The notes under the pieces: model-generated
What the model was told of the DNA's origin: nothing
The model's input: the letters and a program-made list of their open reading frames with translations, nothing else
Databases searched by the model: none
Shown here: positions 17,033 to 27,127 of the stretch, one piece after another
Layout of the letters: every line of letters begins with the position of its first letter
How positions within the stretch are numbered: position 1 is the first letter of the stretch
Translations under genes and position numbers: made by a program
Source of the DNA: Gluconacetobacter aggeris
GTDB taxonomy: Bacteria > Pseudomonadota > Alphaproteobacteria > Acetobacterales > Acetobacteraceae
Assembly (NCBI RefSeq): GCF_014174395.1
Contig: NZ_JABEQD010000002.1
Span: forward strand, 434,001 to 498,000
Reading direction: 5' to 3'
DNA: 64,000 nt

Positions 17033-19417
17033 CTAGAATGCGATGCTGACGGTGCCATAATATGTGCGCGGGGAGCCCGCCAGAGCCGACTGATAATCGC
17101 CCGAGAGCGGAAGGCCATTTTCGCCAATCTGGGAAATGTACGATATGTTCGTAAGATTATAGATATTCAGATCGAATTTAAGATCATGCAGTGGGCCGAT
17201 CTTTCCGAATCGGTAGCTTGCCCCCAAAGACGTCAGCCAGTAACCCGGCACCGACATATCGTTGACGTAACTGAAATAACGCTTCGCCATGTAATTGGCA
17301 TTGGCATAAATACTTGCCGGACCCCAATTATAGGAAATATCGGCCTTGTACATCAATTGCGGAAAAGCGACCACCCTCTTGCCCGCCAGCGCATAGGTCA
17401 CGCCTCCCGATATGATATCGTCGTCGTAGGTCGAATGATTATAGCTGATACTATTCGTAATCGAGAGATTCCTGACCGGGCGAAGCGTGAGCGCGGCGTC
17501 GACGCCGTACATGCTGACGCCACCTACGTCTATGGGCGTGGAAACCGGGTCGGTAATCGGGCCCGATGTCAGGTTCTGGATACGATTGGAAAAATCCGCA
17601 TGATACAGGTTGAGCGATCCCCCGACGATCTGTGAAATATAGCGATATCCAACATCATAGACCCAGGCCGTCTCCGGACGCAGGGTATTCCTGATACTGT
17701 CGAACGTTGCCTGATTGGCGAATCCTCCAAAGGTCGATCCCAGCTGATATCCGCCATAACTGTAAGCGCGCATATTGCGGGCGACGTCGAAATAGACTTC
17801 ATGCCCCGGCAGGAAATGCCATACCCCATTGAAATGAGGCAGGAATGCCTTCGCGCTGGTCAGGCTGCCATTCGCAAGCTGCTCCTGCCCGGTATAGGCG
17901 GCGTCATTCGCCGTGGCTCCCCCGACCGTCGTCACCAGCATCGACTTGAACCCGGCCCTGAAGGTCAGGCTGGAAATCGGCCGATAGCTATCCTCGAGGT
18001 GGAACTGAAAACTGTTGGTATTGAAATTCTCACCCCAGTTACGCTGAAACGGCGTACCAAAATTGCCCAGCACACCGCTGACAGGAACCCCCTCACCGGG
18101 CACTGGTTGCTGGAACATATCCTGTACAACATGATAACGGTTGTTTTCGTACCAGACACCCGCATCGATCGTATGTTTCCTGAACTTGTATTCCAGCGCG
18201 GTCGTAAAGCCGAACTTCTGGTTTCCGGAAAAATTGATCTGCTCGGAAAGCGGCACACCATTGGGAGAACTGACATAGGGTGTCGTCCAGGTACCCCACT
18301 GGTTCGCAGCCTGGCCATAGACCACGGAATTCCACGCCAGACGCCGGTTCAGCACCAGATGAGCATTCACGCCACCCAGATAACTCGACGAATGCGTCAC
18401 GCCGTCAAAATAGGATGCATCCAGGGCATCCCCACCTGCCGCGTCGTAAGCCGCCAGGGCACCACTGAATTCCCCGACGGCAGCGAGATAGGCGCGCGTA
18501 TAATCAGGGTAGTAATAATCGTTCCGATGACCAAGCCTGTTCAGCATGTCGATCGTCTGGTCGGCGTAGTTGAACTGGGTGGCATCGTTCCAGTCGAAAA
18601 ACACCTTCACATTGCTGTCCTGCCCGATGGGCTGGACAAGCTTGGCATTCACCTGCTGATCGAACTGCTCGCCATCCCCCTTCCATTTATTGCCGTCGGA
18701 TCGGGCGTAAGACACCGTGAATTTGGTACCCGATGCGTTCAACCTGCCGCTGTCAACGCGTCCAAAAGTACGAAAAGCATTGTAGCTGCCGAACATCTGC
18801 GAAATCCTGCCGCCGAACCTGTCCGCCGGATCGCGCGAGACGATCTGAATCGCACCACCCAGATTCGTCGTGGCAGGCAATGCCACATCGCCACCCCCCT
18901 CGGAGACATCCATGCGCTCGATATTGTCCGACAGGATCGAGAAATTGATGCTCTGGCCGTTATAGGGAAGGTATGCCTGCGCCCCCAGCGGTACGCCATC
19001 CAGCGTGACGCCAAGCTGATCCTGCTGGAACCCGCGCATATACAGGCTGGAACCCCAGGTATCGACCCCCAGCGGATCGTTGGCCACGAAATTGATACCC
19101 GGCTTGCGCGACAGCATCATCATCGGGCTGCTGCCTTGGACGAACCTGTCCATCTCGGTGCGGGTCATGCTTTCCGTCGCCCCGTTGGCATGATGCCGCA
19201 TGGACGTCACCATGAGGTCTTCACCCGCGCGCGAACGGGCGTCCGCATGGCGTGCAGCCGGGCCGGACGCGGGCACATCGCTCTTCGACGCATGACGATG
19301 CCGTGACCCGCCAGCCTTGCCGGCTCCATTCCCCGCCGCGGCCGAAAACGCCGCATCCGGACACGTGACGATGCAGGACGTCAACAAGAGAAAGGACAGG
19401 AATTTTCGCGAGGCCAT
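17033..19417 (-). CDS. TonB-dependent outer-membrane receptor
   Basis: The protein is about 794 residues with signal peptide MASRKFLSFLLLTSCIVTC..., a periplasmic linker, a possible TonB box (EDLMVTSMR), a plug domain (MDRFVQGSSPMMMLSRKPG, SLYMRGFQQDQLGVTLDGVPLG) and a 22-strand-type barrel ending in aromatic YYGTVSIAF. It would import a ligand such as a siderophore or other scarce nutrient with TonB energy. ATG 19417 was chosen because it begins the signal peptide and has AAGGGCGG upstream; 19525 would start inside an upstream palindrome. No iron-uptake genes adjoin it. Confidence 0.9.
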   Translation of the reverse strand: MASRKFLSFLLLTSCIVTCPDAAFSAAAGNGAGKAGGSRHRHASKSDVPASGPAARHADARSRAGEDLMVTSMRHHANGATESMTRTEMDRFVQGSSPMMMLSRKPGINFVANDPLGVDTWGSSLYMRGFQQDQLGVTLDGVPLGAQAYLPYNGQSINFSILSDNIERMDVSEGGGDVALPATTNLGGAIQIVSRDPADRFGGRISQMFGSYNAFRTFGRVDSGRLNASGTKFTVSYARSDGNKWKGDGEQFDQQVNAKLVQPIGQDSNVKVFFDWNDATQFNYADQTIDMLNRLGHRNDYYYPDYTRAYLAAVGEFSGALAAYDAAGGDALDASYFDGVTHSSSYLGGVNAHLVLNRRLAWNSVVYGQAANQWGTWTTPYVSSPNGVPLSEQINFSGNQKFGFTTALEYKFRKHTIDAGVWYENNRYHVVQDMFQQPVPGEGVPVSGVLGNFGTPFQRNWGENFNTNSFQFHLEDSYRPISSLTFRAGFKSMLVTTVGGATANDAAYTGQEQLANGSLTSAKAFLPHFNGVWHFLPGHEVYFDVARNMRAYSYGGYQLGSTFGGFANQATFDSIRNTLRPETAWVYDVGYRYISQIVGGSLNLYHADFSNRIQNLTSGPITDPVSTPIDVGGVSMYGVDAALTLRPVRNLSITNSISYNHSTYDDDIISGGVTYALAGKRVVAFPQLMYKADISYNWGPASIYANANYMAKRYFSYVNDMSVPGYWLTSLGASYRFGKIGPLHDLKFDLNIYNLTNISYISQIGENGLPLSGDYQSALAGSPRTYYGTVSIAF

Positions 19418-19514
19418 GCCGCCCTTCAGCAGACATCTCGGAAGATACGAGGCATGGCTCATTTTGGCTGTCCCATTCTTCAGGCGGCCGGTCCGACGGA
19501 ACCAGACGGAGAGC

Positions 19515-19528
19515 TGAATGTTCATTCA
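19515..19528. promoter_or_regulatory. Perfect palindrome upstream of the TonB receptor gene
   Basis: TGAATGttCATTCA is a perfect inverted repeat about 100 bp before the chosen start of the receptor gene, in an otherwise gene-free stretch (19418-19720). It could be a repressor operator. Its half-site resembles the TTCAAT-type half-sites near betI, but the family of the regulator is not known. The rest of this gap shows nothing recognisable. Confidence 0.3.
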
Positions 19529-19720: not shown

Positions 19721-20905
19721 CTATCCCGCCCGAAAGCGCGCTTCCCCGCACAAGGCCTGAAGAATGTCCGCATCGTCGCACAGGCCGACAAGCCGCCCTT
19801 CGGCTTCGACCAGCACGGGCAGGCCGCTGCGCTGGCGCAGGGCGATGATTTCGCCCAGGCTCAATTGGGCCGGAACCACGCAGAGCGCCCCTTGCGTCCA
19901 CGCGCCATGCGACCGGATGGCCAGGGCCCGATCGGCGATCGTCGCGATCGCGGCGTCCGGCGCTATGGCGATGCGCCCGCCATCCAGCATCCCGTCCGGG
20001 CGGCGCGGCAGGTCCTGGAAGCGCCGCATGACGGCAGCGGCCACAATGGTCGGCAGCGGATTCATGTGCCGGATGAATTCCGCGACATAGTCATCCACCG
20101 GCCGCAAGGCGATATCATCCGGCGTGCCGGTCTGGACGATCCGCCCCTCGCGCATGATCGTGATACGGCTGCCGATCTTCAGCGCCTCGTCGATATCATG
20201 GCTGACGAACAGGATCGTCTTCTTCAGCCGTTTCTGGAGGTCCAGAAGCTCGTCCTGCAATTTCCGGCGGATCAGCGGGTCGAGCGCCGAAAACGGCTCG
20301 TCCATCAGCAGGATGTCGGCGTCGGTCGCAAACGCGCGCGCCAGGCCGACACGCTGCTGCATGCCACCCGACAGTTCATGGACATGGGCATCGGCCCAGT
20401 TCGCCAGACCGACCAACTCCAGCTTTTCGGCAACGATGTCCCGCCGGATCGACGGCGCCATGCCGCGCAGTTCCAGCCCGAATCCCACATTGTCGCGCAC
20501 GGTCCGCCACGGCAGCAGGCCGAACTGCTGAAACACCATCGCGATGCGCGTCTTGCGCAGGGTGCGCAGCGTATCGTCATCACAGCGCGCGATATCCAGC
20601 CACGCCAGGCCGTTGCCGATCCGTACTTCGCCCCGTATCGGCCTGTTCAACCGGTTGGCCGCCCGCAGCAGGGTCGATTTGCCCGAACCGGACAGCCCCA
20701 TCAGCACGCTGATCTCGCCCCGCGCCACCGCGAGGTTGGCCCCCGCCACCCCCACGGTCACCTTCAGGGCACGGCCGATCTCCTCGCGCGTCTCGCCGGC
20801 ATCAAGCCGGGCCAGCGCAGCCTCGATCGCGCCGCGACGATTGCCGCGATCGAACAGGATATCGACATTGCGGAACTCCAGCGCCGCGTTGATCCCTTCG
20901 CTCAC
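19721..20905 (-). CDS. choV: Choline/betaine ABC transporter ATP-binding protein with CBS region
   Basis: The ATPase has Walker A GLSGSGKST, signature LSGGMQQR, Walker B ADILLMDEPFSALDP and switch HDIDEA, in the ProV/ChoV order, with a C-terminal CBS-like region (TQGALCVVPAQLSLGEII...). Length is 394 residues. The start is GTG, overlapping the choW stop by four bases, and the frame reads EGINAALEFRNVDILFDRG. It energises choline import with ChoW and ChoX; the ChoX gene lies about 9 kb away. An upstream extension in the same frame is a shadow of choW and was rejected. Confidence 0.9.
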   Translation of the reverse strand: MSEGINAALEFRNVDILFDRGNRRGAIEAALARLDAGETREEIGRALKVTVGVAGANLAVARGEISVLMGLSGSGKSTLLRAANRLNRPIRGEVRIGNGLAWLDIARCDDDTLRTLRKTRIAMVFQQFGLLPWRTVRDNVGFGLELRGMAPSIRRDIVAEKLELVGLANWADAHVHELSGGMQQRVGLARAFATDADILLMDEPFSALDPLIRRKLQDELLDLQKRLKKTILFVSHDIDEALKIGSRITIMREGRIVQTGTPDDIALRPVDDYVAEFIRHMNPLPTIVAAAVMRRFQDLPRRPDGMLDGGRIAIAPDAAIATIADRALAIRSHGAWTQGALCVVPAQLSLGEIIALRQRSGLPVLVEAEGRLVGLCDDADILQALCGEARFRAG

Positions 20906-21750
20906 GAAGCCGAATCCTTCGGACGACAGACCCGGTCGAGCATGATCGCCAGCAGCACGATGACGAATCCGGACTCGAACCCGGCATCGACCTGCACGGT
21001 ATTCAGCGCCCGCACCACCGGCACCCCCAGCCCCCCGGCCCCGACCAGGGCCGCGATCACCACCATCGACAGGCTGAGCATGATGCATTGCGTCAGCCCC
21101 GCCTGGATCATCGGCAGGGCGGCAGGCAGTTCGATCTTCCACAGGATCTGCCGCCCGGTGGCGCCGAAAGCCTCGCCGGCCTCGATCAGCGACCGGGGCA
21201 CCCGGGCAATCCCCATCTGCGTCATGCGGATCGGCGCGGGAACGGCGAAGATGATGGTGGAGATCATGCCCGGCACGGTGCCCAGGCCGAACAGGATCAG
21301 CGTCGGGATCAGATAGACGAAGGTCGGCAGGGTCTGCATCAGGTCCAGAAGCGGCTGCAACGCCTGCGCCAGCCGCGGACGATGCGCACAGGCGATCCCC
21401 AGCGGAACACCGACCGCCATGCAGAAGACGGTCGAGAACAGGATCAGCGACAGGGTCGCCATCGTCTCGTTCCAGTATCCCTGATTGATGATGAACAGCA
21501 GCCCCAGCGCGACCAGGGCCGCCAGCCCCGCCGAGCGGCGGAGGAACCACGCCCCCGCCATGGCGGCCACCACCAGCAGCAGGGGCGGCAGAGCCAGCAG
21601 CAGCGTGGTCAGGCCATCGGCACAGAAGCCGACGCTATCGGTGATCACGTCGAAGACAGCCAGACCATGCTTCCGGACCACGTCCACCACGGCCGCCATG
21701 ACGGCACCCACCGGTATCTTGTGCTCCGCGATCCATTGTTCCGGCGCCAT
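20902..21750 (-). CDS. choW: Choline/betaine ABC transporter permease
   Basis: The 282-residue ProW-type permease has about six membrane helices and the EAA loop EAGEAFGATGRQILWKIELP (residues about 190-210) that contacts the ATPase. The sequence around LMQTLPTFVYLIPTLILFGLG is typical for the choline/glycine-betaine branch. It is first in choW-choV, transcribed away from betI-betB, so the two units share a promoter region containing a probable BetI operator. Confidence 0.92.
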   Translation of the reverse strand: MAPEQWIAEHKIPVGAVMAAVVDVVRKHGLAVFDVITDSVGFCADGLTTLLLALPPLLLVVAAMAGAWFLRRSAGLAALVALGLLFIINQGYWNETMATLSLILFSTVFCMAVGVPLGIACAHRPRLAQALQPLLDLMQTLPTFVYLIPTLILFGLGTVPGMISTIIFAVPAPIRMTQMGIARVPRSLIEAGEAFGATGRQILWKIELPAALPMIQAGLTQCIMLSLSMVVIAALVGAGGLGVPVVRALNTVQVDAGFESGFVIVLLAIMLDRVCRPKDSAS

Positions 21751-21883
21751 GATCCGCGCAGCTCCCGTCTGTCGGTGTTCGATATCGCGGACGTCGATAC
21801 CTCTGCGAACTGAATGGACATATAACGAAATGAAATCGGAAAGTGATAGAGAGAATTCCGACTTTTACAGGAACGAAATCGAC

Positions 21884-21901
21884 ATTGAATAGTCGTTCAA
21901 T
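21884..21901. promoter_or_regulatory. Probable BetI operator
   Basis: ATTGAA-tagtcg-TTCAAT is an 18-bp inverted repeat centred about 27 bp before the betI-betB start, in the AT-rich divergent gap with choW. Known BetI operators are palindromes built on ATTGA/TTCAAT half-sites, so autoregulation of the fusion gene, and perhaps of choWV, is likely. The half-sites are visible; binding is inference. Confidence 0.6.
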
Positions 21902-21919
21902 TCGTGCCACATTTCGCAC

Positions 21920-24013
21920 ATGAAACAGTCCTTCCCCGCCCTTACGCCGGTCGAGTTGAAGCGTCGCAGGGAACTCGTGGCCGCGACGCGCGACGTGCTG
22001 GTCGATCACGGCTTCGCCGGCGCCACGGTGGCGCGCATCGCCCGTCATGCCGGCGTTTCTCCGCCGCTCCTGGTCCATTATTTCGGCGACAAGGACGCGC
22101 TGCTCGGCCTGGCATTCCGCGGCACCGCCGCCGCCCTGTCGGCCGGCGTCGCGCGCGCGCTCCGCCACGCGCGGGGACCACGGGCCCGGCTGGAGGCCCT
22201 GATCGGCGTCTGCCTGGGGGGCGAACAGTTCACCACCCGCCAGGTCGCCATCTGGCTGGCCCTATGGGGGCAGGCCGTCCATAGCCCGACGCTGGGCCGC
22301 ATCCAGCGCGCCTATCAGGCCCGCATGCTCTCGAACCTGCGGCACGATCTCGGCCACCTGCTGCCCCGGATACGCGCCCATGCCACGGCCGACACGCTGG
22401 CCTCGCTGATCGACGGCACATGGCTGCGCGCGGCCCTGGCCCCACCGGCGGCGTTCGACAGCCGCATGCCCCGCCAGCAGGTCCTCGCCTTTCTCGACAG
22501 CCAGATCGGCGCCGCCCCGTCGCTTTCCCCACCCCCCGCGATCCGGCACGGCCCGCCGGAGGGGCTGTGCACAAGCTGGATCGACGGCCGCCCCGCCACG
22601 GGCGGCGGCCCCCGGTTCGAAACCCGCAATCCGGCAACCAACAAGGAGCTGGCGGAAGTCGAGGAAGCCGGCGAGGCCCTGGTCGCACAGGCCATCGAGG
22701 CCGCGACGCGCGGGCAGGCCGCATGGGCCGCCCACACCGGCGCCGAACGGGCCCGCATCCTGCGCCGCGCGGCCGACCTGCTGCGCCGCGACAACGCGGA
22801 TCTGGCCCGGATCGAAACGCTGGACACGGGCAAGCCGATCGCCGAGACATCCAGCGTCGACGTGCTGTCCGGCGCCGACGCGCTGGAATATTTCGCCGCC
22901 CTTGCCGCGACGATGACGGGCGATTGCGTCGATCTGGGCCCGACGGCCTTCGGCTACACGCGGCGCGAACCGCTGGGCATCGTGGCCGGGATCGGCGCCT
23001 GGAACTACCCGATCCAGATCGCCTGCTGGAAGGCCGCACCGGCCCTGGCCTGCGGCAACGCGATGATCTTCAAACCCGCCGAACTCACCCCGCTCACGGC
23101 CGTGCGCCTGGCGGCCATCTTCCGCGAGGCCGGCCTGCCCGACGGCGTGTTCAACGTCGTGCAGGGCACGCGGCAAACCGGGCAATTGCTGACCCGCGCA
23201 CCGCAGATCCGAAAGATATCCCTCACCGGCGAGGTCGGCACCGGCCGCCGCGTCATGGCGGACGCCGCCGCCACCCTGAAATATGTCACATTGGAACTGG
23301 GCGGAAAATCGCCGCTGATCGTCTTCGACGATGCCGACCTGGACAATGCGGTGTCGGCCGCCCTGCTGGGCAATTTCTATTCGGCCGGCGAGGTCTGTTC
23401 CAACGCAACGCGCGTCTTCGTCCAGTCCGGCATCCGCGACCGGTTCCTCGAGCGGCTGAAGGCACGGGTGCAGGCCATGACGATCGGCGATCCGCTCGAC
23501 CCGAACACCGATGTCGGCGCGCTGATCTCCGACGATCACATGCGCAAGGTCCTGTCCTACATCGCCGCCGGAAAGAAGGAGGGCGCCGAACTCCTGGTCG
23601 GCGGCCGGCGGGCCACGCGCGGCGCCCTGCGTCAGGGCGCCTTCGTCGAGCCGACCGTGTTCGTCAACTGCCATGACGAGATGACGATCGTGCGCGAGGA
23701 AATCTTCGGCCCCGTGATGGCGGTCCTGGATTTCACCGACGAGGACGAAGTGATCGCCCGCGCCAACGCCACCCCGTTCGGCCTGGCCGCCGGCATCTTC
23801 ACCCGCGACCTGGCCCGCGCACACCGGGTCATCGCGCGGCTGGAGGCCGGCACCTGCTGGATCAACCAGTATAACGTCACGCCGATCGAACTCCCCTTCG
23901 GCGGCTACAAGCAATCGGGCCTGGGCCGCGAGAACAGCCGCGCGGCGCTCGATCACTACACCCAGCTCAAGAGCGTCTACGTGGCGCTGGGCGATGTCGA
24001 GGCACCCTATTGA
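21920..24013 (+). CDS. BetI-BetB fusion: TetR-type repressor joined to betaine aldehyde dehydrogenase
   Basis: One 697-residue frame contains two complete proteins. Residues 1 to about 200 are BetI: a TetR helix-turn-helix ([32 protein letters not shown]) and ligand domain (WLALWGQA... and [12 protein letters not shown]). A proline-rich linker (about 205-220) leads to Bet[21 protein letters not shown], the active-site region GIGAWNYP, general base in LELGGKSP, catalytic cysteine in [12 protein letters not shown], and the end [18 protein letters not shown]. BetB oxidises betaine aldehyde to glycine betaine with NAD(P)+. No in-frame ATG or GTG with a good ribosome site lies at the junction; a GGAGG before a CTG is the only weak possibility. 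The stop shares a base with betA. Confidence 0.93.
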
Positions 24014-25680
24014 TGCGGGACTATGATTATATCGTCGTCGGCGCCGGCTCGGCCGGCTGCGTGCTGGCCAACCGCCTGACCGAGGACGGGCGCAGCCGCG
24101 TCCTGCTGCTGGAATTCGGCGGCAGCGACCGCTCGATCATCGTGCAGATGCCCAGCGCCCTGGCCATGCCCATGCATTCCAAACGCTTCAACTGGTTCTA
24201 CGAAAGCGAGCCGGAGCCGCATCTGGACAATCGCCGCATGCACACCCCGCGCGGCAAGGGGCTCGGCGGCTCATCCTCCATCAACGGCATGGTCTATGTG
24301 CGCGGCCACGCGCTGGATTACCAGGAATGGGAGGAAAGCGGTGCTGCCGGCTGGGGCTATCGCCACGTCCTGCCTTATTTCCGCCGCGCCGAGGATTGCG
24401 CCGAGGGCGAGGATTCCTATCGCGGACGCGGCGGCCTGCTGCACACGCAATACGGCACGCTGGACAATCCCCTGCACGACGCCTGGATGAAGGCGGGCGA
24501 ACAGGCCGGCTACGGCCGCACCGGCGATTATAACGGCTTCCGCCAGGAAGGTTTCGACCGGATGAGCATGACGGTGTATCGCGGCCGGCGCTGGAGCACC
24601 GCGAACGCCTATCTGCGCCCGGCGCTCAAGCGCCCCAACCTGTTTCTGGAAACCCATGCCCGCGTCACGCGCCTCCTCTTCGATGGCCGGCGCGCCACCG
24701 GCCTGTCCTATACGCGCCATGGCGTGTCCCATACCGTTCGCGCGACCCGCGAAATCATTCTCTGCGGCGGTCCCATCAACTCCCCGCAGCTTCTCAAACT
24801 ATCGGGAATCGGCCCGGCGGCGGAACTGCGCGATCACGGCATCACGGTCCTGGCCGACCGGCCCGGCGTGGGCGAAAATCTCCAGGATCATCTGGAATTC
24901 TACTTCCAGGTCGCCTGCCGCCAGCCGGTCACGCTCTATTCCGCCATGTCCCCCTGGGCAAAGGCCCGGATCGGCCTGCGCTGGCTGCTGTTCAAGGACG
25001 GGCTGGGCGCCACCAACCATTTCGAAAGCTGCGGCTTCATCCGCAGCCGCGCCGGCATCCGCTATCCCGACATCCAGTTCCATTTCCTGCCCCTAGCCGT
25101 CACCTATGACGGCAAGGGCCTGGCCCAGGGCCATGGCTACCAGGCCCATGTCGGCCCGATGCGCTCGAAAAGCCGGGGCTGGGTCCGCCTGCGCTCGGCC
25201 GACCCGGCGGAAAAGCCGAAGATCCAGTTCAACTACATGAGCCATCCGGACGACTGGACCGACATGCGCGCCTGCGTGCGCCTGACGCGCGAGATCTTCG
25301 CCCAGCCCGCCTTCGACCCGTTCCGGGGCGAGGAACTGCAACCCGGCACCGACTGCACGAGCGACGACCGGATCGACGCCTTCATCCGCCGGAAGGTCGA
25401 AAGCGCGCTGCACCCCTCCTGCACCTGCAGGATGGGGGCCACGGACGACCCGATGGCCGTGGTCGATCCCGAGACCCGCGTGATCGGGGTCGAGGGCCTC
25501 CGCGTGGTCGATTCCTCGATCATGCCACGCGTCACCAACGGCAACCTGAACGGCCCGACCGTCATGATCGCGGAAAAGGCCGCCGATCACATCAGGGGCC
25601 TGCCCCCCCTGCCCGCCTCCAACGCCCCGTTCTTCGAAGCCCCGGACTGGCAGACCCGGCAGCGTCTCGGCAAAGCCTGA
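24013..25680 (+). CDS. betA: Choline dehydrogenase (GMC oxidoreductase)
   Basis: This flavoprotein oxidises choline to betaine aldehyde. The FAD motif [17 protein letters not shown] lies at residues 6-22, the GMC signatures [19 protein letters not shown] and [17 protein letters not shown] follow, and HPSCTCRMG plus the C-terminal [19 protein letters not shown] hold the active-site histidine and asparagine. The 555-residue length is normal for BetA. ATG 24013 overlaps the betB stop (TGATG), so translation is coupled. A 41-bp copy of the segment at 24342-24382 occurs near 29.06 kb. Confidence 0.95.
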
Positions 25681-25768
25681 CCACCGGCGCGCCCTCTGTC
25701 GTTTTCCGCCGTACAGATGGCGCGCGCCTCCTTGTGCCGTGCCGCTGGCGGGCGCACCATCGCCGCCC

Positions 25769-27127
25769 ATGATCAGCCTCTTCGACCTCTTCAAGATCGG
25801 CATCGGCCCCTCCTCGTCCCATACGGTCGGGCCGATGCGCGCCGCCCGGCGCTTTATCGCGCATCTCACCCCCGCGATGCCCGTCGCACGCCTGCGCGTC
25901 ACGCTCTACGGCTCGCTGGCATGGACCGCCAGCGGCCACGCCACCGACAAGGCCGTCATCCTCGGCCTGGCGGGCGAAACGCCGGAAAGCGTCGATCCCG
26001 ACGCCGCCGACGACATCGTGCGCACGATCGGCGCCGATCGCACGGTGCCGGTCCATGGCCGCACCGTCGCCTTCGACCCCGCCCACGACATCGTGCTGGA
26101 CCGCGACACGATTCCGCCCGTCCATCCCAACACAATGCAGTTCCAGGCCCTTTCCGCCGACGGCACGGTGCTGGACACCGCACGCTTCTGTTCGGTCGGC
26201 GGCGGCTTCATCGTGCCCGAGGACGCGACGAAACAGGCCGGCTACGCCCAGCCCGACATGAAGCTGGATTTCACCAGCGGCATCGAACTGCTGGACCGCA
26301 CGCGCGAAAGCGGATTGAGCATCGCAGGAATTGTCCTGGCCAACGAGGCGTGTCTCCGCCCCCATGCCGAGATCACGGCCTATCTGGACCGGATCATCGA
26401 CACCATGATGGCCTGCGTCGAACGCGGCCTGGTCCAGCACGGCACGCTGCCCGGCCGGATCAAGGTCCGCCGCCGCGCGGCCGCCCTGCACGACCGCCTG
26501 CGGGAGCGCGCCCGCCTCAACCAGCGCCCCCCGCACGAGGCGATGGACTGGGTCAGCCTGTTCGCCATTGCCGTCAACGAGGAAAACGCCGCCGGCGGCC
26601 GCGTCGTCACCGCGCCCACCAACGGCGCGGCGGGCGTGATCCCGGCCGTGCTGCGCTATTACCGCGATTTCTGCCCCGACGCCTCGCGCCAGGGCATGCA
26701 TGATTTCCTGCTGACGGCATCGGCGGTCGGCGGATTGTTCAAGCTCAACGCCTCCATCTCGGGCGCCGAGGTCGGCTGCCAGGGCGAGGTCGGGGTGGCC
26801 TCGTCCATGGCGGCGGCGGGCCTGGCGGCGGCACTGGGCGCGACCCCGCTCCAGATCGAGAACGCCGCCGAGATCGGCATGGAACATCATCTGGGCATGA
26901 CCTGCGACCCGGTCGCCGGCCTGGTGCAGATCCCCTGCATCGAACGCAACGCCTTCGGCGCGGTCAAGGCCATCAACGCCGCCTCGCTGGCCATGCATGG
27001 CGACGGCGCCCATCATGTCTCGCTCGATCAGGTCATCCGCACCATGGCGGAAACCGGCCGCGACATGAACCACCGCTACAAGGAAACGGCGCTGGGCGGC
27101 CTCGCGGTCAATTTCCCGGAATGCTGA
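25769..27127 (+). CDS. sdaA: L-serine dehydratase (iron-sulfur, single chain)
   Basis: The enzyme deaminates L-serine to pyruvate and ammonia using a [4Fe-4S] cluster. The N-terminal beta domain starts [22 protein letters not shown]. The C-terminal alpha domain carries [29 protein letters not shown] and [22 protein letters not shown], whose cysteines bind the cluster. At 452 residues it is the one-chain form. ATG 25769 was chosen for the family N-terminus. It follows betA and fits the pathway's end: betaine to glycine, glycine plus a one-carbon unit to serine, then pyruvate. Confidence 0.95.

Follow-up and report, generated by a model that had tools for sequence, protein, structure and literature searches.

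The window, defined here as the entire 64-kb (64,000-nucleotide) stretch of Gluconacetobacter aggeris DNA, contains a stop-free frame on the plus strand (21920-24013) that encodes a protein of 697 amino acids. This protein is composed of a BetI-type TetR repressor (residues 1-196), a short variable linker, and a betaine-aldehyde dehydrogenase (BADH; residues 220-697). A first-pass annotation had described the gene as a complete TetR-type BetI joined in frame to a complete BADH, and the open frame and the Pfam and NCBIfam matches agree with that description. The features of the locus are listed in Table 1.

Table 1. Features of the fusion locus, in window coordinates.
Feature	Coordinates	Strand	Basis
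betI-betB fusion gene, 697 aa	21920..24013	+	single open frame; Pfam; NCBIfam; same frame kept in relatives
TetR_N DNA-binding domain, residues 19-62, with HYFGDK motif	21974..22105	+	Pfam PF00440, E 2.3e-13
TetR_C_6, BetI-type ligand-binding/dimerisation domain, residues 87-196	22178..22507	+	Pfam PF13977, E 8.4e-23
Interdomain linker, residues 197-219	22508..22576	+	without in-frame ATG, GTG or TTG
Betaine-aldehyde dehydrogenase half, residues 220-697; C493, E459, N362, K385	22577..24010	+	Pfam PF00171; NCBIfam NF009725 and TIGR01804
BetI-type operator TTGAATAGTCGTTCAA (TTGA-N8-TCAA), 19 bp before the start codon	21885..21900	.	pattern search
betA, probable choline dehydrogenase (GMC oxidoreductase)	24013..25680	+	Pfam GMC_oxred_N and C; name from position and annotated relative
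Divergent ABC transporter permease, probable choline/betaine uptake	20902..21750	-	Pfam BPD_transp_1
Presumed ABC transporter ATPase, after the permease (start approximate)	19721..20900	-	ORF translation; motifs

TetR_N, TetR_C_6, and Aldedh are the only domains listed in the Pfam scan of the fusion protein. The first two pass their thresholds at 50.1 bits (threshold 24) and 81.2 bits (threshold 27), and Aldedh covers residues 231-686 with an E-value of 9.2e-176. By sequence, a DNA-binding domain and a catabolic enzyme are present in one chain. The enzyme half passes two NCBIfam BADH equivalog models, NF009725 (784.2 bits, cut-off 593) and TIGR01804 (679.9 bits, cut-off 668.6), and no second close BetB was found in the genome, the next best match being at 44%. 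The BetI half scores 170.9 bits with the BetI model TIGR03384, which is under the cut-off of 201.3, and is 34% identical to the BetI of E. coli; for these reasons it is called BetI-type here and not a BetI equivalog. TIGR03384 is passed by another fusion (G748, 207.6 bits). Among the PDB matches listed (the best 60 of 280 and of 158), no solved chain extends over both halves.

The ATG of betA overlaps the stop codon of the fusion gene (TGATG). On the other side, the divergent permease gene would share the operator with the fusion gene, and two relatives have OpuAC proteins at this divergent position. An L-serine dehydratase gene lies downstream of betA (25739-27127, plus strand), and a TonB-dependent receptor gene lies beyond the transporter (17033-19525, minus strand). 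A TonB receptor gene also adjoins the fusion of Komagataeibacter.

The first-pass annotation had pointed to 21860-21930 as DNA that the repressor half might bind, and the candidate operator TTGAATAGTCGTTCAA lies within it. This is the sole match to TTGA-N8-TCAA in the 64-kb window, where 0.45 are expected by chance, so a lone match would not count by itself. The stricter form TTGAAYRNNYRTTCAA occurs once in the 4.32-Mb genome, at this same position before the fusion gene, and the reversed-pattern control gives 0. TTGA-N8-TCAA is present no more than 350 bp upstream in 83 of 91 distinct fused genes, which are not independent rows because close relatives are among them; one mononucleotide-shuffled set of these regions has no match. 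Within the coding sequences of the fused genes, 183,459 bases also contain no match. By pattern search, the window locus has a BetI-type operator upstream of its bet operon. The form belongs to BetI and not to the fusion, since it is also found in E. coli K-12 (TTGATTGGACGTTCAA, between betI and betT) and at many, though not all, separate betI loci. It was not found in three relatives without an intact BetI half on BetB, G092 (16 kb searched), G096 and G093 (approximately 4.4 kb each).

At least two operators are present at 25 of 90 fused loci (one of the 91 was dropped for too little upstream DNA), with spacings mostly of 97-177 bp. One operator of such a set may serve the divergent gene separately. 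The idea that a two-by-two particle loops the DNA between paired operators was considered and set aside; the spacings show no helical phasing and the genome of the window has one operator. A box with the N4 spacing of Ruegeria is likewise not the upstream form of the fusions, TTGA-N4-TCAA being present in 6 of 91.

The residues expected of a repressor are conserved. H53, F55, and K58 are present in all 91 fused proteins and in E. coli BetI, as are W112, W116, D165, W168, and R170. W112 and W116 are a possible choline cage, and in view of its operator the repressor half looks functional. In the enzyme half of the window protein, C493, E459, N362, and K385 are all present, which we take to be the catalytic Cys, the general-base Glu, the oxyanion Asn, and the Lys of the NAD site, respectively; the ligand-pocket and catalytic residues are both retained. 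The catalytic Cys is present in 88 of the 91 fusions. Two of the exceptions (L129 and L132) are cut short, and the third (L127, Kaistia granuli) is truly without it.

The two halves and the linker differ in rate of change. Five pairs that include the window gene give dN/dS values of 0.05-0.30 in the BetI half, 0.12-0.24 in the enzyme half, and 0.26-0.86 in the linker; the BetI half of the pair L010/L042 has a value of 0.46. Both halves are under purifying selection. An AlphaFold2 monomer model, built from a shallow alignment of 50 fusions, has two folded domains with a mean pLDDT of 82.2 and a pTM of 0.64. Its pLDDT is below 50 at residues 199-212, in the linker, and also at 1-4, 342-348, 489-492, and 646-683. 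The very low confidence of the linker is as would be expected of a flexible tether. The linker had been called proline-rich, which holds for the lineage of the window and fails for the fusion family at large.

The gene had been regarded as a singular oddity, a view that the relatives overturn. Searches of related genomes, a step that the first-pass annotation had proposed, returned fusions in many of them, and the gene is a member of a conserved chimera family. Among 14 genomes of Gluconacetobacter, nine (that of the window and eight others) contain a full-length fusion in one frame. The eight other copies keep the same frame at 97, 96, 92, 89, 85, 72, 71, and 70% identity, and one of them (G160) is in a single-contig assembly. 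For the BetI half, identity to the window is 97% in G. tumulicola and 96% in G. asukensis. In a tenth genome the contig ends within the enzyme half of the fusion. The best matches in the remaining four are only ALDHs at 43-44%.

In a sample of 397 genomes of the family, the BetI half is matched at E 1e-20 in 35, and in 25 of these, that of the window included, it lies in an open frame of more than 700 amino acids. In all 25 (L144-L168), the frame was confirmed to continue unchanged into BetB. Named genomes were also scanned; nine fusions supplied the BetI halves used as queries, and of the 236 relatives obtained the best 80 were kept. BetI and BetB share one frame in 76 of the 80, a proportion that gives no frequency because the scan started from a fused query. 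Within the 76, L129 and L132 end at the locus edge and L078 breaks late in the enzyme half, at unknown bases. The frame is interrupted in two other loci (L094 by a frame break, L118 by a run of unknown bases), and betI and betB are separate genes in the last two (L104, Aquibaculum, and L128). The hosts of the fusion include Acetobacter, Ancylobacter, Aureimonas, Azorhizobium, Bosea, Kaistia, Methylobrevis, Rhodomicrobium, and gammaproteobacterial MAGs.

Frequency can be read from broader samples. Of 385 genomes of the class, the fusion profile is strongly matched (E 1e-190) in 49, three of which, including that of the window, are stop-free over both halves; of 398 genomes of the phylum the counts are 111 and three. 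The two samples overlap, and two of the three stop-free genomes are common to both. A further 5 of the 385 and 12 of the 398 genomes match both halves with at least one stop inside, so that betI and betB are neighbours in a shared frame. Among plasmid records, 49 of 2832 matching ones cover 80% of the protein. A relative on a Komagataeibacter plasmid is 676 amino acids in length by its coordinates and is annotated just as betB; among the 30 plasmid matches listed, two Komagataeibacter rows are betB alone and most of the others are separate betB and betI. A phage origin was rejected, since only 2 of 82 matching records of the phage collection cover 80% of the protein, both as two pieces annotated as separate genes.

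A tree was constructed from the enzyme half using 64 rows, 46 of them fused (of the 91) and 18 others. It is the product of a quick search with SH-aLRT as the sole support and no inferred root; the sample was drawn with a fused query, and L016, L017, and L179 are on long branches. The 46 fused rows lie in one clade with an SH-aLRT of 98. This clade also contains L016 and L017, which are lone BetBs at loci without BetI and whose long branches meet, and G092, whose BetI half is broken. Directly outside it are L104 and L128, with separate genes, and the long-branched L179. The fused label requires 3 changes on the tree, compared with an average of 15.9 for shuffled labels, and the starred branches force at least 2, so relatives without the BetI link do exist.

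The enzyme-half tree is compatible with one fusion followed by losses of the BetI half, the direction being an interpretation placed on an unrooted tree. Repeated independent fusion was rejected, as one origin followed by losses fits the tree, which is quick, unrooted, and limited to half of the fused rows. A single event probably produced the fusion, when the stop between an adjacent in-frame betI and betB was lost, and it would then have been retained. Stop loss is an easy route, given the class and phylum genomes in which the two genes are adjacent in one frame with stops between them. In G092 (L224 / L015), the BetI half is broken on its N-terminal side, BetB retains its own ATG with a Shine-Dalgarno (SD) sequence, and no operator was found in 16 kb.

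A group of Kaistia sequences has departed from this pattern in the enzyme half. Among 14 genomes searched in the genus of K. granuli, seven have a match at E 1e-90, and the fusion is intact in three (L226-L228). L127, L229, L230, and L231 lack the catalytic Cys and the glycine-rich NAD loop, and their oxyanion Asn is replaced by Ser or Gly; L127 and L231 still have a residue aligned with the general-base Glu, and it is Glu. The K. granuli fusion with its catalysis-deficient ALDH half is at L127:5971-8010. The BetI half is intact in L127, L229, and L230, which have two operators upstream, and L231 ends at a contig edge before its BetI half. The OpuAC binding protein gene of K. granuli is divergent. 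These four Kaistia genomes have no BetA orthologue, which elsewhere is at 68-72% (their best match is at 44-47%). The intact G778 has none either (48%), and G785 and G784 have one. In K. granuli the next BetB-like ALDH among the matches listed is at 42%.

All four Kaistia enzyme halves have frames that are open to about the usual C-terminus. In a simple neutral simulation of an enzyme half of 466 codons, run 150 times for each distance and without indels, stop-free copies make up 27% at 0.05 substitutions per site, 2% at 0.3, and 0.7% at 0.4. Between L127 and L229, dN and dS are 0.053 and 0.521 for the BetI half and 0.303 and 0.795 for the enzyme half, and the raw ratios of enzyme halves compared with L230 reach 0.70-0.76. 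Selection on these enzyme halves is relaxed, yet dN/dS is below 1. The predicted tail of K. granuli has an ALDH fold with a TM-score of 0.89 (target length) to the Pseudomonas BADH 6bjp, which is weak evidence because the alignment included active relatives. From these sequences, a BetI half can apparently persist without catalysis, and an enzyme half can be kept in frame without it. The non-catalytic half may be retained because the chain needs it structurally or because it takes part in regulation, and the four Kaistia proteins are possible pseudoenzyme regulators.

A degenerate tail was also observed in another genus (G659; L223:5246-6739, minus strand). This gene encodes a BetI with an ALDH tail of approximately 300 residues, for a total of 498 amino acids, and is weaker evidence in such GC-rich DNA. 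OpuAC and permease genes are divergent from it and BetA is kept downstream.

The best explanation, which we consider likely, is that the gene encodes a choline-released autorepressor on a flexible tether to an active BADH, in one chain that arose probably once by loss of a stop. Without choline, dimers of the BetI half would occupy the 21885-21900 operator, which has the divergent uptake genes on one side and the betIB-betA operon on the other, and would keep both low. Choline is the effector of other BetIs (PMC12442346). By analogy with these, the window protein would bind choline in its TetR pocket and release the DNA. BetA would then produce betaine aldehyde, and the enzyme half would oxidise it to glycine betaine. 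Because the repressor and the enzyme are the same molecule, the enzyme level would be autogenously capped and the two activities held at a fixed 1:1 ratio. In the simplest reading the halves work side by side on the tether; the state of the enzyme might also control DNA binding, though this reading does not require it.

The first-pass annotation had also proposed that a dimeric BetI joined to a tetrameric BetB would impose a two-by-two DNA-binding particle. By inference from known BetI and BetB, the fusion may assemble through dimers and tetramers into such a particle. Several observations count against the best explanation as a whole. The BetI half is under its curated cut-off, many separate betI loci have the same operator form, 13 of 91 fusions have a start at the junction, and relatives without the BetI link are on the tree.

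A reading with somewhat less than an even chance is that the fusion is a frozen accident. Loss of a stop would have joined two co-transcribed genes whose products continue to act separately, and the frame would persist because a truncated enzyme would misfold and drag the repressor down with it. The adjacent in-frame betI and betB of unfused relatives and the probably flexible linker agree with such a history, as does the decay of the Kaistia enzyme half, which with its kept frame, elevated dN, and predicted ALDH-like fold has the appearance of a trapped tail. Against it, the chain is kept across many families, and within the tree set the BetI half appears to have been lost just in G092 and in the pair L016 and L017.

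The first-pass annotation had suggested a trigger enzyme. In the sense of PutA, this would be a dehydrogenase whose state (NAD or betaine aldehyde bound, or oligomer) controls DNA binding, so that the operon senses flux as well as choline. We regard this as unlikely, even though the repressor and enzyme have been kept as one chain over many families and the Kaistia enzyme half stays in frame after loss of its catalytic parts, as if it were otherwise needed. PutA offers a precedent for an enzyme with a DNA-binding domain (PMC5293562). The linker, in contrast, is variable and of very low confidence in the predicted model, the BetI halves retain pocket residues of their own, and relatives without an intact BetI half (G092, G096, and G093) retain the enzyme. 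Doubtful too is the extension of this idea in which the ALDH half is a working switch part that senses betaine aldehyde or NAD(H) and signals to the BetI half. Part of Kaistia would then have a pseudo-dehydrogenase whose role is regulatory alone, making a TetR regulator whose sensor descends from an enzyme, that remained after BetA and catalysis were lost and the operators, together with the divergent uptake gene in K. granuli, were kept.

It is improbable for the window that the gene in fact yields two proteins, whether translation starts internally at the junction or proteases cleave the linker. The first-pass annotation had seen no normal start codon at the junction, and there is in fact no in-frame ATG, GTG, or TTG between residue 183 and residue 315, which is deep in the enzyme. 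The ATG at residue 183 (22466) is within the BetI fold and has no SD sequence, and 6 of the 9 full-length genus copies do not have it. At 22560-22569, GGAGGGG is followed by a GTG (22567) that is out of frame and leads into no BetB frame. In L009 the same GTG is preceded by GGAGGGT. In favour of two products are rare start codons, of which the in-frame CTG at 22565 is a candidate, the linker, which appears exposed in the predicted model, and the starts found at the junction in some other genera.

These starts were scored in the 91 distinct fusions as an in-frame start in the linker with an SD duplex of -5 kcal/mol or better. They are present in 13 of the 91 and in 0 of 18 in the clade of the window (Gluconacetobacter, Acetobacter, and relatives), where the best is a GTG at -4.8 kcal/mol in L068. 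By group, the counts are 4 of 5 (genus g53), 2 of 3 (g35/g92), 1 of 3 (g68), 4 of 11 (Ancylobacter group), 1 of 10 (Aureimonas), 0 of 4 (Kaistia/Bauldia/Faunimonas), and 1 of 37 (others). The rate of start with SD per codon is lower in the linkers (0.0062) than elsewhere in the same genes (0.0118). With the low count, this rate led us to drop the general claim that such junctions are an ancestral dual-start state. An in-frame ATG with an SD sequence lies at the BetI-BetB junction in L154, L155, L156, L157, L152, and L081, which may produce both the fusion and a free BetB. Because such starts have a plausible ribosome site, two products may be made in some other genera, and a dual-start state may hold for single clades; in the clade of the window the protein should be an obligate fusion.

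A sequencing or assembly error that deleted a stop or shifted the frame, which the first-pass annotation had feared between the halves, has virtually no chance of being the explanation, because separate assemblies of eight other genomes of the genus keep the same frame at 70-97% identity and both halves are under purifying selection, and the few breaks at related loci (L094, and L118 and L078 near unknown bases) do not touch the window.

A protein of Komagataeibacter saccharivorans with the fusion architecture (WP_254058047.1, one annotated record) is annotated simply as betB. Where the fusion is annotated in this way, the regulator can escape regulon surveys and genomes seem to be without betI. 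Among the literature matches listed, which mostly exclude subscription journals, no description of a BetI-BetB fusion was found, and domain databases may list the architecture without remark. PMC7824335, which matches betI, betB, and 'fused', is not a prior description; in the 12 listed of 17 places, 'fused' there refers to methyltransferases and glucosylglycerol. The BetI-BetB fusion seems to represent a class of chimeric repressor-enzyme that is old and has been overlooked. It comes with natural controls in the unfused sister genes, the forms without an intact repressor half and operator, and the Kaistia chains without a catalytic Cys, and these make the benefit of welding a sensor to its enzyme directly testable.

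Compared with BetI, the choline-sensing TetR repressor of betIBA and betT, the window form is covalently joined to BetB and is below the TIGR03384 cut-off. It shares TetR_N and TetR_C_6, W112/W116, the HYF-DK motif, and the gene order betI-betB-betA with the BetI of E. coli and with Ruegeria BetI1 (PMC12442346). The operator has the form of that in the betI-betT gap of E. coli, and its spacing is unlike that of the Ruegeria BetI1 box (ATTGACG-CGTCAAT). Compared with BetB (P. aeruginosa, PDB 2wme and 6bjp), residues 221-694 of the fusion align at an E-value of about 1e-182. The fusion shares the BADH equivalog scores and the catalytic Cys, Glu, Asn, and Lys, and differs by approximately 220 extra N-terminal residues, which are the repressor.

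MocR/GabR regulators also combine a DNA-binding domain, of the GntR family, with an enzyme-derived domain, an aminotransferase-like sensory one (PMC5320631). The folds are different and the catalytic Cys is kept in 88 of 91 fusions; the Kaistia forms without it resemble the MocR/GabR endpoint.

The P5C dehydrogenase of PutA is a member of the ALDH superfamily. PutA, which contains ribbon-helix-helix (RHH), proline dehydrogenase, and P5C dehydrogenase domains, is likewise an autogenous repressor fused to a catabolic enzyme (PMC5293562). The parts of the chimera are known, and PutA is the precedent for a repressor-enzyme fusion. The fusion has a TetR domain and not an RHH domain, and its Pfam scan contains no RHH or proline dehydrogenase/flavin domain, so it does not belong to the PutA family. 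Its BetI half has a ligand domain of its own, and the fusion would thus be a parallel to PutA in which the repressor and the enzyme have separate ligands in one pathway.
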